In this document: positions 7,312-44,984 of the stretch, one piece after another
Numbering within the stretch: position 1 is the stretch's first letter
How the letters are laid out: each line of letters begins with the position of its first letter
Source: Caldicellulosiruptor naganoensis
Lineage (GTDB): Bacteria; Bacillota; Thermoanaerobacteria; Caldicellulosiruptorales; Caldicellulosiruptoraceae
NCBI RefSeq assembly: GCF_026914285.1
Contig: NZ_CP113864.1
Location: 1,147,001 to 1,211,000, forward strand
DNA length: 64,000 nt
Reading direction: 5' to 3'
Position numbers and translations under genes: made by a program
Notes under the pieces: model-generated
What the model was told of the DNA's origin: nothing
Databases searched by the model: none
The model's input: the letters and a program-made list of their open reading frames with translations, nothing else

Positions 7312-7400
7312 TACACATGTTCATTTTGGGCTATTTCCCAAATGAAAATAGATGGTCCTCTGCAAACATGGTTTGCAAGAACATTTTTGTGTGGAAGGAG
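7312..7400 (+). ncRNA. Ribosomal protein L19 leader (cis-regulatory RNA)
   Basis: About 100 untranslated bases precede rplS. A long-range stem pairs ACACATGTTC (7313-7322) with GAACA and GTGT (7378-7392, bulge of T residues). It encloses two hairpins: 7323-7344 (TTTTGGG with TCCCAAA) and TGCAAAC/GTTTGCA (7361-7377). This arrangement just before the ribosome binding site matches the known L19 leader of Bacillota, which is thought to mediate feedback by L19. Assignment is by structure read by eye. Confidence 0.7.
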
Positions 7401-30208: not shown

Positions 30209-30685
30209 AAGGGAAGATCTTTGTAAAAGTTTACAATAAAAGACAAATAGCATTGATTCTGTTTGTTATATTGCTAATCTTTGCTGGTATTGCCAATTCA
30301 AAAATAAATAGAGGTAAGTAAGCAAGTTGATACAGGTGGTGAGAATGTTTTAGATGAGATAAAATTAAGGCGTGAGATTGAGCGTTCAAAAGAAATAAAT
30401 GCCTTAAAAAATCTTCGTGACGAAAAAGCAGATGAGGATAGTCGAAAGCTGATTGACAAGAAAATTTCTGAGATAGTTGATAACACTAATAAAGAGATGA
30501 TTTGTGAAAATGTCTTTAGTTCAAAAGGAATTGGCGACTGTACAGTTCTTTTTTCTGGAGATATTGTCTATGTAATAACGCAGAAAAAGTTATCAAAGCA
30601 ACAGGTAATTCAGATACAAAGCACTGTGATGAATGTGTTTAGAGTAAAAATAGACAGAATCAGAATAACATCTTCCTCTCAATAA
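30205..30685 (+). pseudogene. spoIIIAH: Stage III sporulation protein AH, frameshift
   Basis: SpoIIIAH is the forespore-facing partner of SpoIIQ. The GTG at 30205 starts KGKIFVKVYNKRQIALILFV with the N-terminal membrane helix. Near 30310 the frame changes and the rest reads VSKQVDTGGENVLDEIKLRR, EIERSKEINALKN and the YscJ/FliF-like domain to 30685. The linker after the helix looks shorter than usual. At least one indel and probably a small deletion separate the two parts. Confidence 0.87.
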
Positions 30686-37963: not shown

Positions 37964-37991
37964 TTGCAACGCACTAAAATTTCTGTATAAT
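37964..37991 (+). promoter_or_regulatory. Residual iorA promoter
   Basis: TTGCAA (37964-37969), 16 bases, TATAAT (37986-37991), followed by AAAGGTGAT before the broken iorA start. TTGCAA is palindromic and has TATTAA 17 bases away on the other strand. Confidence 0.5.
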
Positions 37992-38032
37992 AAAAAAGAC
38001 AAAAAACATTATCTTTAAAGGTGATAAAAGGT

Positions 38033-39750
38033 ATGAAAAAATCTTAATGGGCAATGAAGCAGTTATAGAAACACTCAAAAACTTTTCAGATAATGATTTT
38101 TTATGTTGGGTGGTCTGTCAATGACAAGGTTGCACTTGAAATTGCAGCGGGTGCAAGTTTGGCTGGAGCAAGAAGTGTTGTGACAATGAAACAGGTGGAG
38201 CTAAATGTTGCCGCAGATCCACTTCTTTCGCTATCAATTATTGGAATAGAAGGTGGGTTTGATTGTATTTGTTGCAGATGACCCGGGTCCTCATCATCTC
38301 AGACAGAACAGGATACCAGAAATTTTGCGAGGTTTTGCAACTTGCCCGTTTTTGACCCTTCATCTCCAAAAGAAGCATTTTTCTTGTAAAAGTGGCATAT
38401 GAAGTTTCAGAAAAGTATAAACTGCCTGTTATCTTTAGAATGACCACACGTGTTTGCCATTCAAACGAGACATTGGAATTTGAATTTAAAAGGGAAAAGA
38501 AAAAGATTTCAGGTTTCAAAAAAAACTCAGTGTGTGATACTTCCCGGACTTTCTTATATAAAACACATTGAACTTGAAGATAAACTCACTAAGATGAAAT
38601 CAGAGTTAGAAGGATTGAATATTGTTGAAGGAGATGGAGAAACAGGAATTGCTAATTCAGAAGTATCATATTTTTACGTGAAAGAAGCAATAAAAAGATT
38701 TGAAGACTTGTTTTCTATTCTAAAAGTAACCTGTGGCACATCCTATGGATGACAAGACAATCTTAGATTTTGCTACACGGAAAAGAATGCCAATATTTAT
38801 AGAAGAACTTGACCCTGTTATTGAAGAGGAGACAAAACTTGGGCTTTTTGAAAATAGAATGTATATTCCTACATATGGCAAGCGAAATGGTTATGTCCCA
38901 TCTGCTGGAGAACCTGATGTTGACAAGGTAAAGAAAATAATTCTCGACATTACAAGAAAAGAAGTTCTTTTAGTGCAAAAAACTCTGTAACAGTACCTGA
39001 CGTACCAAGAAGCCAGTCACAGTTTTGTGCAGGATGTCCTCATAGAAATTCATTTTTGATAGTTAAAAATGCTTGCAAAGGTAAAGATGTGATCTATACA
39101 GGAGATATAGGTTGCTACACCCTTGGTTTTGCTAAGCCGATTTCAGCAATACATACCTGCTTTTGTATGGGTGCAAGTATCACAATAGCACAAGGATTAA
39201 AACTTATAGAGAGCAAAAAGAAAATAATTGCTTTTATCGGAGGCTCCACATTTTTTCACAGTGGCATTACAGGTCTTGTGAATGCATATATAACAAACAC
39301 AACATCACAATTTGTATCTTAGACAATCTAACAACTGGAATGACAGGGTTTCAGCCATATCCCGGTATTGGCCAAAAGGTAACGGGAGAGGATGGTAAGA
39401 AGGTTGGAACAGCTGATTTGGTTAGGGGAATTGGTAAAAAGATGTTTTGGTAATCGATCCTTATGAGAATTTTAATTTGTGTGTTCAAGGAGTTAAGCAG
39501 TTTATAGAAAAAGATGAACTCTCTGTTATTATATTTAGACGAAAATGTGCAGCTTTGGAGAAATATAATTACTACTACAGACTAAATGAGAAATGTATAA
39601 ATTGTAAGGCATGTCTTACGGCTACAGGTTGCCCGGCAATTAGTGAGGATGCAAACCAAAACGTCTTTATAGACAAAACACTTTGCGCTGGATGTGGTCT
39701 TTGTGCAAATTTCTGTCCGAAGAATGTGAAGGAAGAAGAAATTTTGGAGT
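38033..39750 (+). pseudogene. iorA: Indolepyruvate ferredoxin oxidoreductase alpha subunit, heavily decayed
   Basis: IorA oxidatively decarboxylates aryl pyruvates from aromatic amino acids, with thiamine diphosphate and ferredoxin. From ATG 38033 the reading frame is lost after three codons (one A missing from an A-run); the proper frame gives ILMGNEAVIETLKNFS. About 20 residues with the YPGTPS motif are deleted. Fragments in different frames follow: KVALEIAAGASLAGARSVVT, QFCAGCPHRNSF, TGDIGCYTLGF and a C-terminal ferredoxin domain with CINCKACL and CAGCGLCANFCPK (about 39591-39720). At least six frame changes are needed to join them. Confidence 0.9.
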
Positions 39751-39979
39751 TTTTTGAAAAACATTTTAAGCATATATATATCAACTTGATGCACATAATA
39801 TAGCAGTCGAACTGGGTGTACCAAAAGCAGAAAACATTGCAATACTTACTTTGATTTGCAAAAATTTGCTGTTGCCTTTTTAAAAAGAGGAAATTTGGGC
39901 AGCATTGTGTGAACTGTTACCACCAAAAATGGTTGATATGAATAAACTTTTGGTTGAAAAGGTTTATGAAAAATATTAA
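39751..39979 (+). pseudogene. iorB: iorB C-terminal remnant, most of the gene deleted
   Basis: After the iorA ferredoxin domain the sequence passes, with one stop in between, into YQLDAHNIAVELGVPKAENI and PPKMVDMNKLLVEKVYEKY to 39979, which match the extreme C-terminus of IorB. The first 70 percent or so of iorB and the end of iorA are missing, so a deletion fused the two genes. The assignment is by position and by these short matches. Confidence 0.7.
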
Positions 39980-40038
39980 AATAAAAGTAATCCACAAAGA
40001 TGAGAAGAGAGGAGAAGAGATAGATAGAGAAAGTTGAG

Positions 40039-41195
40039 ATGAGAAAGTTAAGAGAAAAACTTTTTTTAAGACAAATCGAAAATGTTTTCAAAAATAGTCA
40101 TTTCTACAAAAGAAAATATGAAGGAGTTGGTATTAATTTAAATGGTATTAAAAGTCTAGATGATATAAAAAAACTTCCTTTCACTACAAAAGAAGAAGTA
40201 AGAGAAGCTTATCCTTTAGGACTTATGTCAACAGATTAAAAAAAGATAATGCGAATTCACTCATCGTCAGGAACAACTTGACTTCCGGTAATAATACCTT
40301 ATACACAAAAAGATGTGGACGACTGGAAAGAGATGATGAAAAGATGTTATCAATTTCGCCGGTGTTACCGAACTTGACAGGGTACAAGTAACACCGAGCT
40401 ATGGGCTTTGGACAGCAGGAATTGGATTTCAGCTCGGGGCTGAGTATTTAGGTGCAATGATAATACCGACTCATACGGTCTTTTGCTTGCAGAAGAAGTA
40501 GTAAAAAGAGGGCTAAAAGATAAAATTCACTTGAGGGTTGAAATATTTGGTTCGGAAAGATGGGGAGAAAAACAAAGAAGAACAATTGAAGAGTATTTAG
40601 GAGTAGAAACGTTTGATATATATGGTCTTACAGAAATTTATGAACCAGGTATTGCCATTGACTGCAAATATCATGAGGGACTTCACTATTTTGAATGACT
40701 ATCTTTACTTTGAAGTGATTGAACCACAAACAGGCCAAGAGGTTCCAGATGGTGAGTTTGTTGAACTTGTTATAACAATCCTGCAAAAAGAAGGTGCTCC
40801 TCTTACAAGGTACAGAACAAGAGATATTACACGCAAGATGACTGGAGTATGCCGAGGTGGCTCTACATATCCGAGAATTGACAGAATAGTTGGCAGAACC
40901 GATGATATGGTTAAGGTAGAAGGTGTTAACATTTTCCTAGCGCAAATAGACACCTTTTTTGAAGGCTATTAAGGGTGTTGGCAGTGAGTATCAGGTTATT
41001 ATTGAAAGAGTGGATTTCCGAGACAAGCTCACATTAAAAGTTGAAGTTGAAGATGAATTTTACACCACTTCAATGAAGGAATTAATTTTTCATGAGTTTA
41101 AGAATAAAATTGGAGTGTCTGCTGAAATAATATTGTGTAGAATGTGTAGAATCGGGAACTTCCACGAAGTGAGAAGAAACGAAACGCATATTTGA
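40039..41195 (+). pseudogene. Phenylacetate-CoA ligase-like enzyme, decayed
   Basis: Members activate aryl acids with ATP and CoA and are often encoded beside iorAB. From 40039 the frame gives FLRQIENVFKNSHFYKRKYE, the family start. In-frame stops then fall at TAA (about 40237, after GLMSTD) and at TGA inside the adenylate-binding motif (RIHSSSGTT then TGA, then LPVIIPYTQ). Frame changes follow near 40350, 40690 and 40970. Later fragments VETFDIYGLTEIYEPGIAID, LTRYRTRDITRKMTG and IDRIVGRTDDMVKVEGVNIF are readily recognised. It is clearly not functional. Confidence 0.88.
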
Positions 41196-41215
41196 TTTGC
41201 GAGGATGATAGAAGA

Positions 41216-42736
41216 ATGGCAAAGATAAAGCTTTTTAGAGGAAGGCGAATGCTTTCCTCTATTTTAATTGTAGTAGCCCTTTACTATTTAGCACCTAATG
41301 TTTTTTCACATGACAGGTTCAGTGCAAATAGACTTTTGAGCTGGCTCTTATCATACCAGATATTTATCTTTCTTTCGTCAGTAATTACAATTTCCTTACT
41401 AATCAGATTTTTGAGCGTTAAATATTCACCAAAGATTTCAAATTACATTTTGAGCCTTTGCTGGAATGATATCTTAGTAGTCTTTTTAGGTGTGTCTTTA
41501 CTTCATACGACCTTTATGCTTGCCTCAGTAAATGTAGTTGATTATTCTTCAGAGTGGATAGTTAAAGGAGTTAATTTTGATATAATTATTTCATTTGTTG
41601 ATATTTTGGTAGTAATCATCTATTTTTGTATCTTTTATACAATAAGTCAACCAAAAAAGCTTTTCATTAGAATGCTAAAGGATTTAAATGGTTTTGCAAA
41701 AGCAGGGGAAGTAGAAAGAGTTAATGAACAATTTTTAATCATAAAAGAATTTATTAGAAAGACAAATCTGTTCTTTGATTCAACACTGCTACTTTCTGTA
41801 CTTGATAATCCAAAATCTTTTCAACTTCTTATTGAGCAAGAAAAAAATAATAGCTATTTAGAGGAAATAATAGGAATATTACTCAAAAATACAGAAAATG
41901 CTCTTCTGTCTGAGAGGACAGAAGAGTTTAAAAAAACAATTGATTTTTTGAGTATATTGCTTGACAAATTTCAAAGCAGCAAAAGTGATATTTTTGAAAC
42001 GCTTATTACAGATTATTTTACCCTCATATCTCATAATATTCAAAGACTGGAAGCTAATCAGGTTTTGTATTTGGTAAAACAGTTGAAAAAAATTTTTGAG
42101 ATGCTTTCAAAAAAACAAATAAAGATAAGTGAGAAATCAAAATCTGATTTGATTGAAATTTTAGATCGACTTTCGTATATCATCCTTAGTGAAAATTCAG
42201 CGGGAATTGGAGAACTGTTTTCAATCTTAGAATTTTATATAAGTCTCTTTGCTTATTTTGAAAAAGATTATGTTTTCTACACTCAGCTTAAAGAAGAATT
42301 TGACACCTTTGTTATTTCTCTGCTGCAAAATATGCATGGTGTTCCTACAAAAGAAATAAAAGAGTACGTTTTAAAAATGATAGAAAAAGCAAAACCATAC
42401 AGAGTTTCTTTTGCTGAAATGGCACTTGTTTACATATTTCTTTTGACCTTAGAATATAAAATGTTAGAGATTGGGTATGTTCTTTTTAATATTATCATAG
42501 ATTCAGCAAAGACAAAGAAACTTATTGAAAAAGGTAATTGTTCCTTTTATCATAACATCAATAGTAGCAAAAAGATGTTTTACCTTTATAAATGTTTATT
42601 AGGAATTAAAAATAAAGTAAAGAATGAAACTTTTAAGAAGAAGATGTATAAAAAATATTTAATCTCAGTAGGTAATTGTAGACCAAAGAAACTATGTAAG
42701 GATGTAATGTTGAAAAACTTGTCTGGAAGAAAATAA
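41216..42736 (+). CDS. Hypothetical membrane protein (506 aa)
   Basis: I do not recognise this family. Four hydrophobic helices lie in the first 155 residues (about 12-28, 40-60, 85-105, 125-150), followed by about 350 residues of helical, Lys/Glu-rich cytoplasmic sequence resembling a helical-repeat solenoid. There are no catalytic motifs. ATG 41216 is preferred over the in-frame TTG at 41192. The frame is open in a zone where both neighbours are broken, suggesting selection. A terminator-like hairpin follows it. Confidence 0.7.
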   Translation: MAKIKLFRGRRMLSSILIVVALYYLAPNVFSHDRFSANRLLSWLLSYQIFIFLSSVITISLLIRFLSVKYSPKISNYILSLCWNDILVVFLGVSLLHTTFMLASVNVVDYSSEWIVKGVNFDIIISFVDILVVIIYFCIFYTISQPKKLFIRMLKDLNGFAKAGEVERVNEQFLIIKEFIRKTNLFFDSTLLLSVLDNPKSFQLLIEQEKNNSYLEEIIGILLKNTENALLSERTEEFKKTIDFLSILLDKFQSSKSDIFETLITDYFTLISHNIQRLEANQVLYLVKQLKKIFEMLSKKQIKISEKSKSDLIEILDRLSYIILSENSAGIGELFSILEFYISLFAYFEKDYVFYTQLKEEFDTFVISLLQNMHGVPTKEIKEYVLKMIEKAKPYRVSFAEMALVYIFLLTLEYKMLEIGYVLFNIIIDSAKTKKLIEKGNCSFYHNINSSKKMFYLYKCLLGIKNKVKNETFKKKMYKKYLISVGNCRPKKLCKDVMLKNLSGRK

Positions 42737-42742
42737 GAATAA

Positions 42743-42802
42743 GTGCCTCATTCTTTGGAAAAATAGTAAATAGAAATACTCCAAAGAAGGGAGCATTTTT
42801 TT
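42743..42802 (+). terminator. Imperfect terminator before the DUF421 gene
   Basis: TGCCTCATTCTTTGGA (42744-42759) pairs imperfectly with TCCAAAGAAGGGAGCA (42780-42795), followed by seven T residues. Confidence 0.6.
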
Positions 42803-43479
42803 GATTATCACAGTATTTATAAGAACACTTATCTTGTATGTCTTGGTTGTGTTAGTGATGAGACTGATGGGAAAACGACAAATGGGTGAACTTCAACCAT
42901 TTGAACTTGTAATTACGATAATGATTTCTGAACTTGCTGCTGTGCCCATGCAAAATACAGGTGTTCCACTTTCTAAATGGAATTATTCCAATTCTGACAC
43001 TACTGTTCTTACAAACCTTGATCACCTTTAGTACATTGAAATCTGACCTTATGAAAAAATTGGTTTGTTGAAGTCCTACAATATTAATTGCTAAAGGGAG
43101 AATACTGGAAGATGCTCTCAGAAAGACACGATACAGTTTGAATGATTTAATGGAACAGCTGAGAATTAAAGGATATTTCAATATTCATGACATTGAGTAT
43201 GCCATATTAGAAACAGATGGAGATATCTCAGTGCTTCCAAAATCACAAAAAAGGCCTGTAACACCTGCAGATTTGTGTATACAAACAAAATACGAGGGAC
43301 TTCCTGTAAGTGTCGTAGTAGATGGAAAAATTAAAGAGGATGTACTAAAATACACAAACCTTAGCAAAGAACAGATAATATCAGAGATTCAGAAAAGAGG
43401 AATTAATAGTATTGATAAAGTATTTTTTGCATGTATCGACCCTGAGGGTAATTGGTTTGTTCAAGAAAAGGAGAGATAG
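42801..43479 (+). pseudogene. DUF421 (YetF-like) membrane protein, frameshift and stop
   Basis: The first part, with VMRLMGKRQMGELQPFELVI and AAVPMQNTGVPL, is the normal DUF421 start with membrane helices. The frame shifts by one near 42972. The shifted frame gives the third helix (IIPILTLLFLQTLITFSTL) but meets TGA after KKLVC (about 43075). From there it is open to 43479, with the soluble domain RYSLNDLMEQLRIKGYFNIH. One indel and one nonsense codon inactivate it. A DUF4363 gene follows, the usual partner. Confidence 0.87.
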
Positions 43480-44580: not shown

Positions 44581-44984
44581 ATGCTGAAGATGGAGCAGGT
44601 AATTGAGAAAGCACTCAAACTTAAAAATTGGGCGGTGGTGGGGCAACCCCAAACAAAGAAAAATATGGTTATTTAGTGTTCAAAAGATTGCTTGAAAAAG
44701 GATATAACGTTTTTGCTGTAAATCCTTTCTATAGTGATATCGAAGGGAACAAGGTTTATAAAAGCCTTGAAGAAGTACCTCACAAAATTGAATGTGTGAG
44801 TATGATTGTCTCACCAAAGAAGGGTGAAAAATATATAAAGGAAGCAGCAAGCATAGGAGTAGAGTATATCTGGTTTCAACCAGGTGCAGATGATGTTAGA
44901 CTTATCAATATGTGCAAAGAACTTGGGATAGTTCCTATTAACGATGCTTGTGTTTTAGTTGCTTTGAACTCATTAAAAAGATAA
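44581..44984 (+). pseudogene. CoA-binding (Rossmann) domain protein, single frameshift
   Basis: The family (YccU-like) is a single CoA-binding Rossmann domain of about 130 residues. From ATG 44581 the frame reads KMEQVIEKALKLKNWAVVG and is then off by one at a run of four G (44638-44642). Restoring one G gives ATPNKEKYGYLVFKRLLEKG and an open frame to 44984, including SMIVSPKKG and YIWFQPGADD. This is the only lesion seen, so a sequencing slip or phase variation cannot be excluded. Confidence 0.78.

Follow-up and report, generated by a model that had tools for sequence, protein, structure and literature searches.

Decay of two indolepyruvate oxidoreductase and PaaK-like ligase operons in Caldicellulosiruptor naganoensis

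In the genome of the hot-spring bacterium Caldicellulosiruptor naganoensis (G000 in our numbering, in which the other G-numbers denote related family genomes and L-numbers extracted loci), positions 38033-41195 of the window, that is, of the whole 64,000-nucleotide stretch of DNA analysed, probably hold a genuine pseudogene cluster. Judged from its lesions and from the pattern of substitutions, it would be the remnant of an ancestral working operon that decayed without selection in one lineage. The loss of the pathway is wider than a preliminary description of this DNA reported, since it reaches a second, paralogous operon as well: in C. naganoensis every one of the seven enzyme genes that they contain is damaged, and raised ratios of replacement to silent changes show that both operons have lost selection.

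Operon A and its lesions

The cluster, here called operon A, carries on the + strand the remains of iorA, iorB and paaK, in that order, and the gene identities, order and coordinates first assigned to it were correct. Its features, in window coordinates, are as follows.

37964-37991, + strand: sigma-70-like promoter, TTGCAA-16-TATAAT, 5′ of iorA, recognized by eye
38017-38024, + strand: ribosome-binding-site-like AAAGGTGA, 5′ of the iorA ATG at 38033, recognized by eye in an aligned region
38033-39721, + strand: iorA pseudogene (indolepyruvate ferredoxin oxidoreductase alpha), with nine indels of 1-2 nt and a 69-nt deletion
39722-39726, no strand: site of a deletion of about 330 nt that removed the iorA end and about the first 100 iorB codons (338 nt in G008 against 5 nt here)
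39727-39980, + strand: 3′ part of iorB, a pseudogene remnant that carries one in-frame stop and one 2-nt indel
40039-41195, + strand: paaK-like aryl-CoA ligase pseudogene, interrupted by two in-frame stops and by six indels that shift the frame, among them a deletion of about 73 nt

Lesions were scored against the intact genes of G008, and on this count operon A holds 14 indels of 1-2 nt and an 8-nt insertion, three in-frame stops (none in iorA, one in iorB and two in paaK) and three larger deletions, one in iorA (69 nt), one across the iorA/iorB junction (about 330 nt) and one in paaK (about 73 nt). Apart from the first of these, large deletions were sized in a separate comparison with G008, and terminal 'indels' were not counted as lesions where the aligner had misplaced gene ends (the iorA start, the paaK starts and the iorB starts). 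The preliminary description held that all the genes are present as fragments, which is right for iorA and paaK but not for the roughly 100 iorB codons that are deleted outright. It also took the promoter and ribosome-binding site before iorA to be intact; both can indeed be recognized by eye, and the -10 box is kept in all six aligned genomes, but the frame that opens at the ATG at 38033 closes after four codons.

On one side operon A has spoVT and a divergent 126-aa gene as neighbours, on the other an open 514-aa gene. The 514-aa neighbour (41192-42736) gave no Pfam or NCBIfam match, and its counterpart in G009 is a protein of only 325 aa, apparently without a middle part. In G008 (L038, 4790-6643) the start of spoVT is swapped for about 1.85 kb of other sequence, and that locus holds no intact spoVT.

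A second operon, intact relatives and lost selection

The genome contains a second ior operon, operon B, with the order paaK1-iorA-iorB-paaK2-ACT, between clpB and miaB.

L028 6998-11822 (contig about 1232000-1236820): operon B, about 44 kb downstream of operon A

The search for a functional ior gene elsewhere in the genome thus turned up a second operon, yet one that is broken in all four of its enzyme genes, and a working second ior operon in C. naganoensis is rejected. In operon B, iorA is disrupted by two in-frame stops and three one-base indels; a stretch of about 600 nt, covering the end of iorA (the ferredoxin-like part) and the start of iorB, has been lost, and stops occur in iorB (one) and paaK2 (two). 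The paaK1 gene is open apart from an extra base at about codon 14 and an insertion of 10 nt close to its end; the first in-frame ATG, GTG or TTG after the frameshift, at 7314, lies well inside the gene, and from its reading frame paaK1 may keep some residual function. The tandem ACT-domain gene is open and free of lesions. In a profile search of the assembly, no IorA scored over the curated TIGR03336 cut-off of 650.9 bits, the best fragment reaching 291.6 bits, and the other 2-oxoacid oxidoreductase genes of the genome, at about 1728424 and 1809894 of the contig, gave weak IorA matches only (93.3 and 40.9 bits).

The relatives are different in this respect. With the same IorA model, two matches over the cut-off were found in 11 of the 12 genus genomes, the exception being C. 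naganoensis with none, and in 12 of 13 when one further family member is included, so that each of the 12 other family genomes has two iorA genes (24 in all). The proposed loss of the pathway in C. naganoensis is accordingly supported by the intact orthologues sought, and found, in these 12 genomes. The five fully examined relatives (G002, G003, G008, G009 and G011) have the gene order of operon A intact and in the same place, and in all five iorB is open at both loci, against a remnant only in C. naganoensis. The PaaK C-terminal domain occurs three times per genome in all 12 genus genomes, always within a few kb of the iorA genes, the operon A representative of C. naganoensis being a scrap of 40.4 bits. 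In G009, both IorB copies contain the POR domain, one of them passing an NCBIfam IorB cut-off (230.8 against 230) and the other falling below every IorB cut-off, and the ligases have AMP-binding and AMP-binding_C_2 Pfam domains over cut-off, while the intact proteins score 605.8 and 431.3, below the 646.3 cut-off of the NCBIfam PaaK model TIGR02155. By their profile scores the ligases are to be called PaaK-like only, and because these proteins and one IorB score below the family cut-offs, the substrates of both the ligases and the oxidoreductases are uncertain.

Selection on the C. naganoensis lineage was assessed from branch counts in an unrooted three-way comparison of G000, G008 and the G003/G011 pair, in which sites differing between G003 and G011 were skipped. 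G008 is the sister of C. naganoensis in the control-gene tree, although identities to G008 and to G003 are mixed along the window, and nine of ten control genes were used, spoVT having been dropped for want of an intact G008 copy in the locus. On the C. naganoensis branch, replacement and silent changes number 117 and 91 in operon A (ratio 1.29) and 99 and 101 in iorA, iorB and paaK2 of operon B together (0.98), compared with 70 and 290 in the nine control genes (0.24); paaK1 of operon B has 24 and 53. The other two branches show 181 and 347 in operon A, 83 and 252 in iorA, iorB and paaK2 of operon B, and 11 and 116 in paaK1. Fisher tests against the control genes give p values of 5.5e-19 for operon A, 2.6e-13 for operon B and 0.032 for paaK1. 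Taken gene by gene, the rise relative to the G008 branch is significant for iorA and paaK in both operons (p 0.0001, 0.046, 2.3e-5, 7.2e-5 and 3.6e-6), whereas the two iorB remnants, which are short, do not reach significance (p 0.12 and 0.29). The ACT gene has two replacement and 18 silent changes and no sign of relaxation; as it belongs to the nine controls, it is not independent of the set with which it is compared.

Decay appears to be of similar age in the two operons, in keeping with the loss of one pathway. The replacement and silent counts of operons A and B do not differ (p 0.20), and the estimated share of the branch spent without selection is 0.47 (0.27-0.70) for operon A, 0.34 (0.18-0.53) for operon B and 0.21 (0.08-0.38) for paaK1. 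Because operon B decayed over a similar period, what was lost would be the whole reaction and not a spare copy. One could instead suppose separate losses, at different times and with different causes; operon A, for example, might have gone first, as a spare, and operon B later. Operon A has more small indels and the larger unselected estimate, and with only about 43% identity between them the two kinds of IorA may have had different substrates. We regard separate losses as unlikely, given the overlapping intervals, the like ratios and the absence, among the 12 other family genomes, of any that lacks a single copy. Since the intervals overlap, it is simpler, although not proved, to suppose that both operons ceased to be needed together, and one cause might then lie behind the breakage and the raised replacement rates seen in both operons.

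Direction of the lost pathway

The function lost is, in the reading that we favour from gene content, a redundant route for the salvage of aryl acids. In the intact operons, an AMP-forming ligase would convert an aryl acid to its aryl-CoA at the expense of ATP, IOR would then fix CO2 with reduced ferredoxin to give the arylpyruvate, and transamination would yield Phe, Tyr or Trp. Such salvage could be dispensable where aryl acids are scarce or amino acids sufficient, the markers of the standard route still being present: aroB, a prephenate dehydratase domain and trpB were found over cut-off in all 12 genus genomes, C. naganoensis included. The preliminary description had read the damage as a loss of aromatic amino acid fermentation, which is unsupported, as the ligase is of the AMP-forming, ATP-spending type and no ADP-forming ligase domain is found in the genus (PF13607 in none of the 12 genus genomes, the same search being positive in 11 of 14 control genomes).

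It may nevertheless be asked whether the operons served fermentation, from arylpyruvate to aryl-CoA and reduced ferredoxin and on to the aryl acid, before they were lost. Passages of PMC13285125 tie IOR to amino acid fermentation in Pyrococcus furiosus and cite IOR-dependent phenylacetate formation for Bacteroides thetaiotaomicron, a member of a genus in which IOR and an AMP-forming ligase occur as a pair, so that both directions have to be considered. The same passages place many IOR/VOR-like genes near a phosphate acyltransferase and a kinase, or near an ADP-forming ligase. In addition to the missing ADP-forming domain, each of the 12 genus genomes has one acetate-kinase-family gene, the operons themselves encode AMP-forming ligase domains, and among the best 80 of 593 outside iorA loci a PaaK-like gene is likewise present at 62, the other 18 having none in the fetched stretch, some of these being short contigs. 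For these reasons we consider a fermentative role improbable. An ACT gene of the operon B kind was found at 45 of the same best 80 of 593 loci.

Regulatory RNA leaders were also searched for. No T-box or other regulatory leader reached the Rfam gathering scores in the window, and none did so in eight genus loci, seven of them intact (eight of 11 loci were searched, L031, L033 and L034 having been left out for size). Of the 80 outside iorA loci, 35 were searched, some of these 35 holding little upstream sequence, and a T-box was found at one of them. This locus (L103, 5272-8319, from an Oscillospiraceae MAG) has a T-box leader followed by a yerC/trpR-like gene and then iorA-iorB; the specifier of the leader we read as a Phe codon, whichever register is taken. 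No literature was found that joins a T-box with indolepyruvate and phenylalanine.

A paper of 2026 argues, in passages resting on gene context, that where IOR is paired with an AMP-forming ligase the reaction probably proceeds in the direction of amino-acid synthesis (PMC13285125), and in Methanococcus maripaludis an aryl-acid route by which aromatic amino acids are made has been described, as cited in parts of PMC4162585 and PMC3462420. The C. naganoensis operons resemble the M. maripaludis route in the IorA-IorB pair and, in the favoured reading, in the use of aryl acids as precursors, but they differ in that the copies are pseudogenes, the ligase gene lies inside the operon and the direction is one that we infer. 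With Bacteroides, as described in parts of PMC13285125, where the pair is read as possibly biosynthetic, they share an IOR gene adjoining the gene of an AMP-forming arylacetate-CoA ligase, whereas that phylum is another one, its genes are intact, and it is the Caldicellulosiruptor family that has two paralogous operons. Salvage is thus favoured because of the AMP-forming domains, the absence of PF13607, the argument of PMC13285125, the M. maripaludis route and the T-box leader. Against it stand the lack of such a leader in the window and in the eight genus loci, its presence at just one of the 35 outside loci, and the profile scores below cut-off that leave the substrates uncertain.

Sequence quality, other broken genes and significance

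Nanopore sequencing is prone to indels, and the assembly was built on nanopore long reads. That the genes are in fact intact, and seem damaged through faults of sequencing or assembly, is nevertheless exceedingly improbable and is rejected: of the 19 one- or two-base indels in both operons (one of these 19, in iorB of operon B, may result from misalignment next to a deletion), two do sit in runs of 6 and 8 bases, but the remaining 17 are in runs of at most three identical bases, deletions extend from about 70 to 600 nt, stops arise by base change, the replacement rate is raised while the control neighbours are open, and the assembly was polished with Illumina reads. Read error is unlikely also because the genome of C. 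naganoensis DSM 8991 (NA10) is described in PMC10019236 as closed and as Illumina-polished from nanopore reads.

To place the damage against a background, 53 genes conserved between G003 and G008 and having a window counterpart were taken as a reference set. For eight of these, no single window frame covered as much as 90% of the gene, three of them the ior/paaK genes and the other five comprising one shadow frame over the RNase P RNA, two likely start choices and two apparent frameshifts. The ior/paaK genes are the only heavily damaged ones among the 53, and two others have an apparent single frameshift. A SpoIIIAH-like gene (30214-30682) is split over two frames, and in a gene for a CoA-binding-domain protein (44590-44981) the frame is apparently shifted within a G-rich stretch close to the start. 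A DUF421/YetF-like gene (42801-43479), which lies a short way downstream of operon A, has a frameshift and a stop; it is open in G009 and was not aligned in G008, and so stands outside the 53-gene set. Other pseudogenes do occur in the genome, and none in the 53-gene sample comes near the ior genes in damage.

Lineage-specific decay of a dispensable bacterial pathway is a known kind of event, and the present case resembles it in its scattered frameshifts, stops and deletions, its relaxed replacement rate and its intact neighbours. It is unlike the usual case in that two separate paralogous operons are gone in one species while the 12 relatives searched keep both. The kind of event is common, but what makes this case noteworthy and of mild interest is that one of the 13 family genomes has lost both paralogues and that its ACT gene survives. 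Among the matches listed, the titles and abstract starts of the Caldicellulosiruptor literature do not report loss of an ior operon.

A further suggestion, which we make only tentatively and hold to be possible, is that the two IOR-ligase operons formed one system for salvaging aryl acids into amino acids, which was shed whole during a single period of relaxed selection, the ACT gene having been kept under selection. If so, the ACT protein would sense amino acids for something beyond the operon. Whether an IOR with an AMP-forming ligase serves breakdown or salvage has been argued from gene context in PMC13285125, and a species without an intact copy, set against close relatives with two, is a natural knockout with which to ask what this anaerobic pathway does. 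When the species is compared with such a relative, the incorporation of labelled phenylacetate into amino acids and the production of aryl acids from amino acids would be expected to show one pattern of difference under salvage and the opposite pattern under fermentation.
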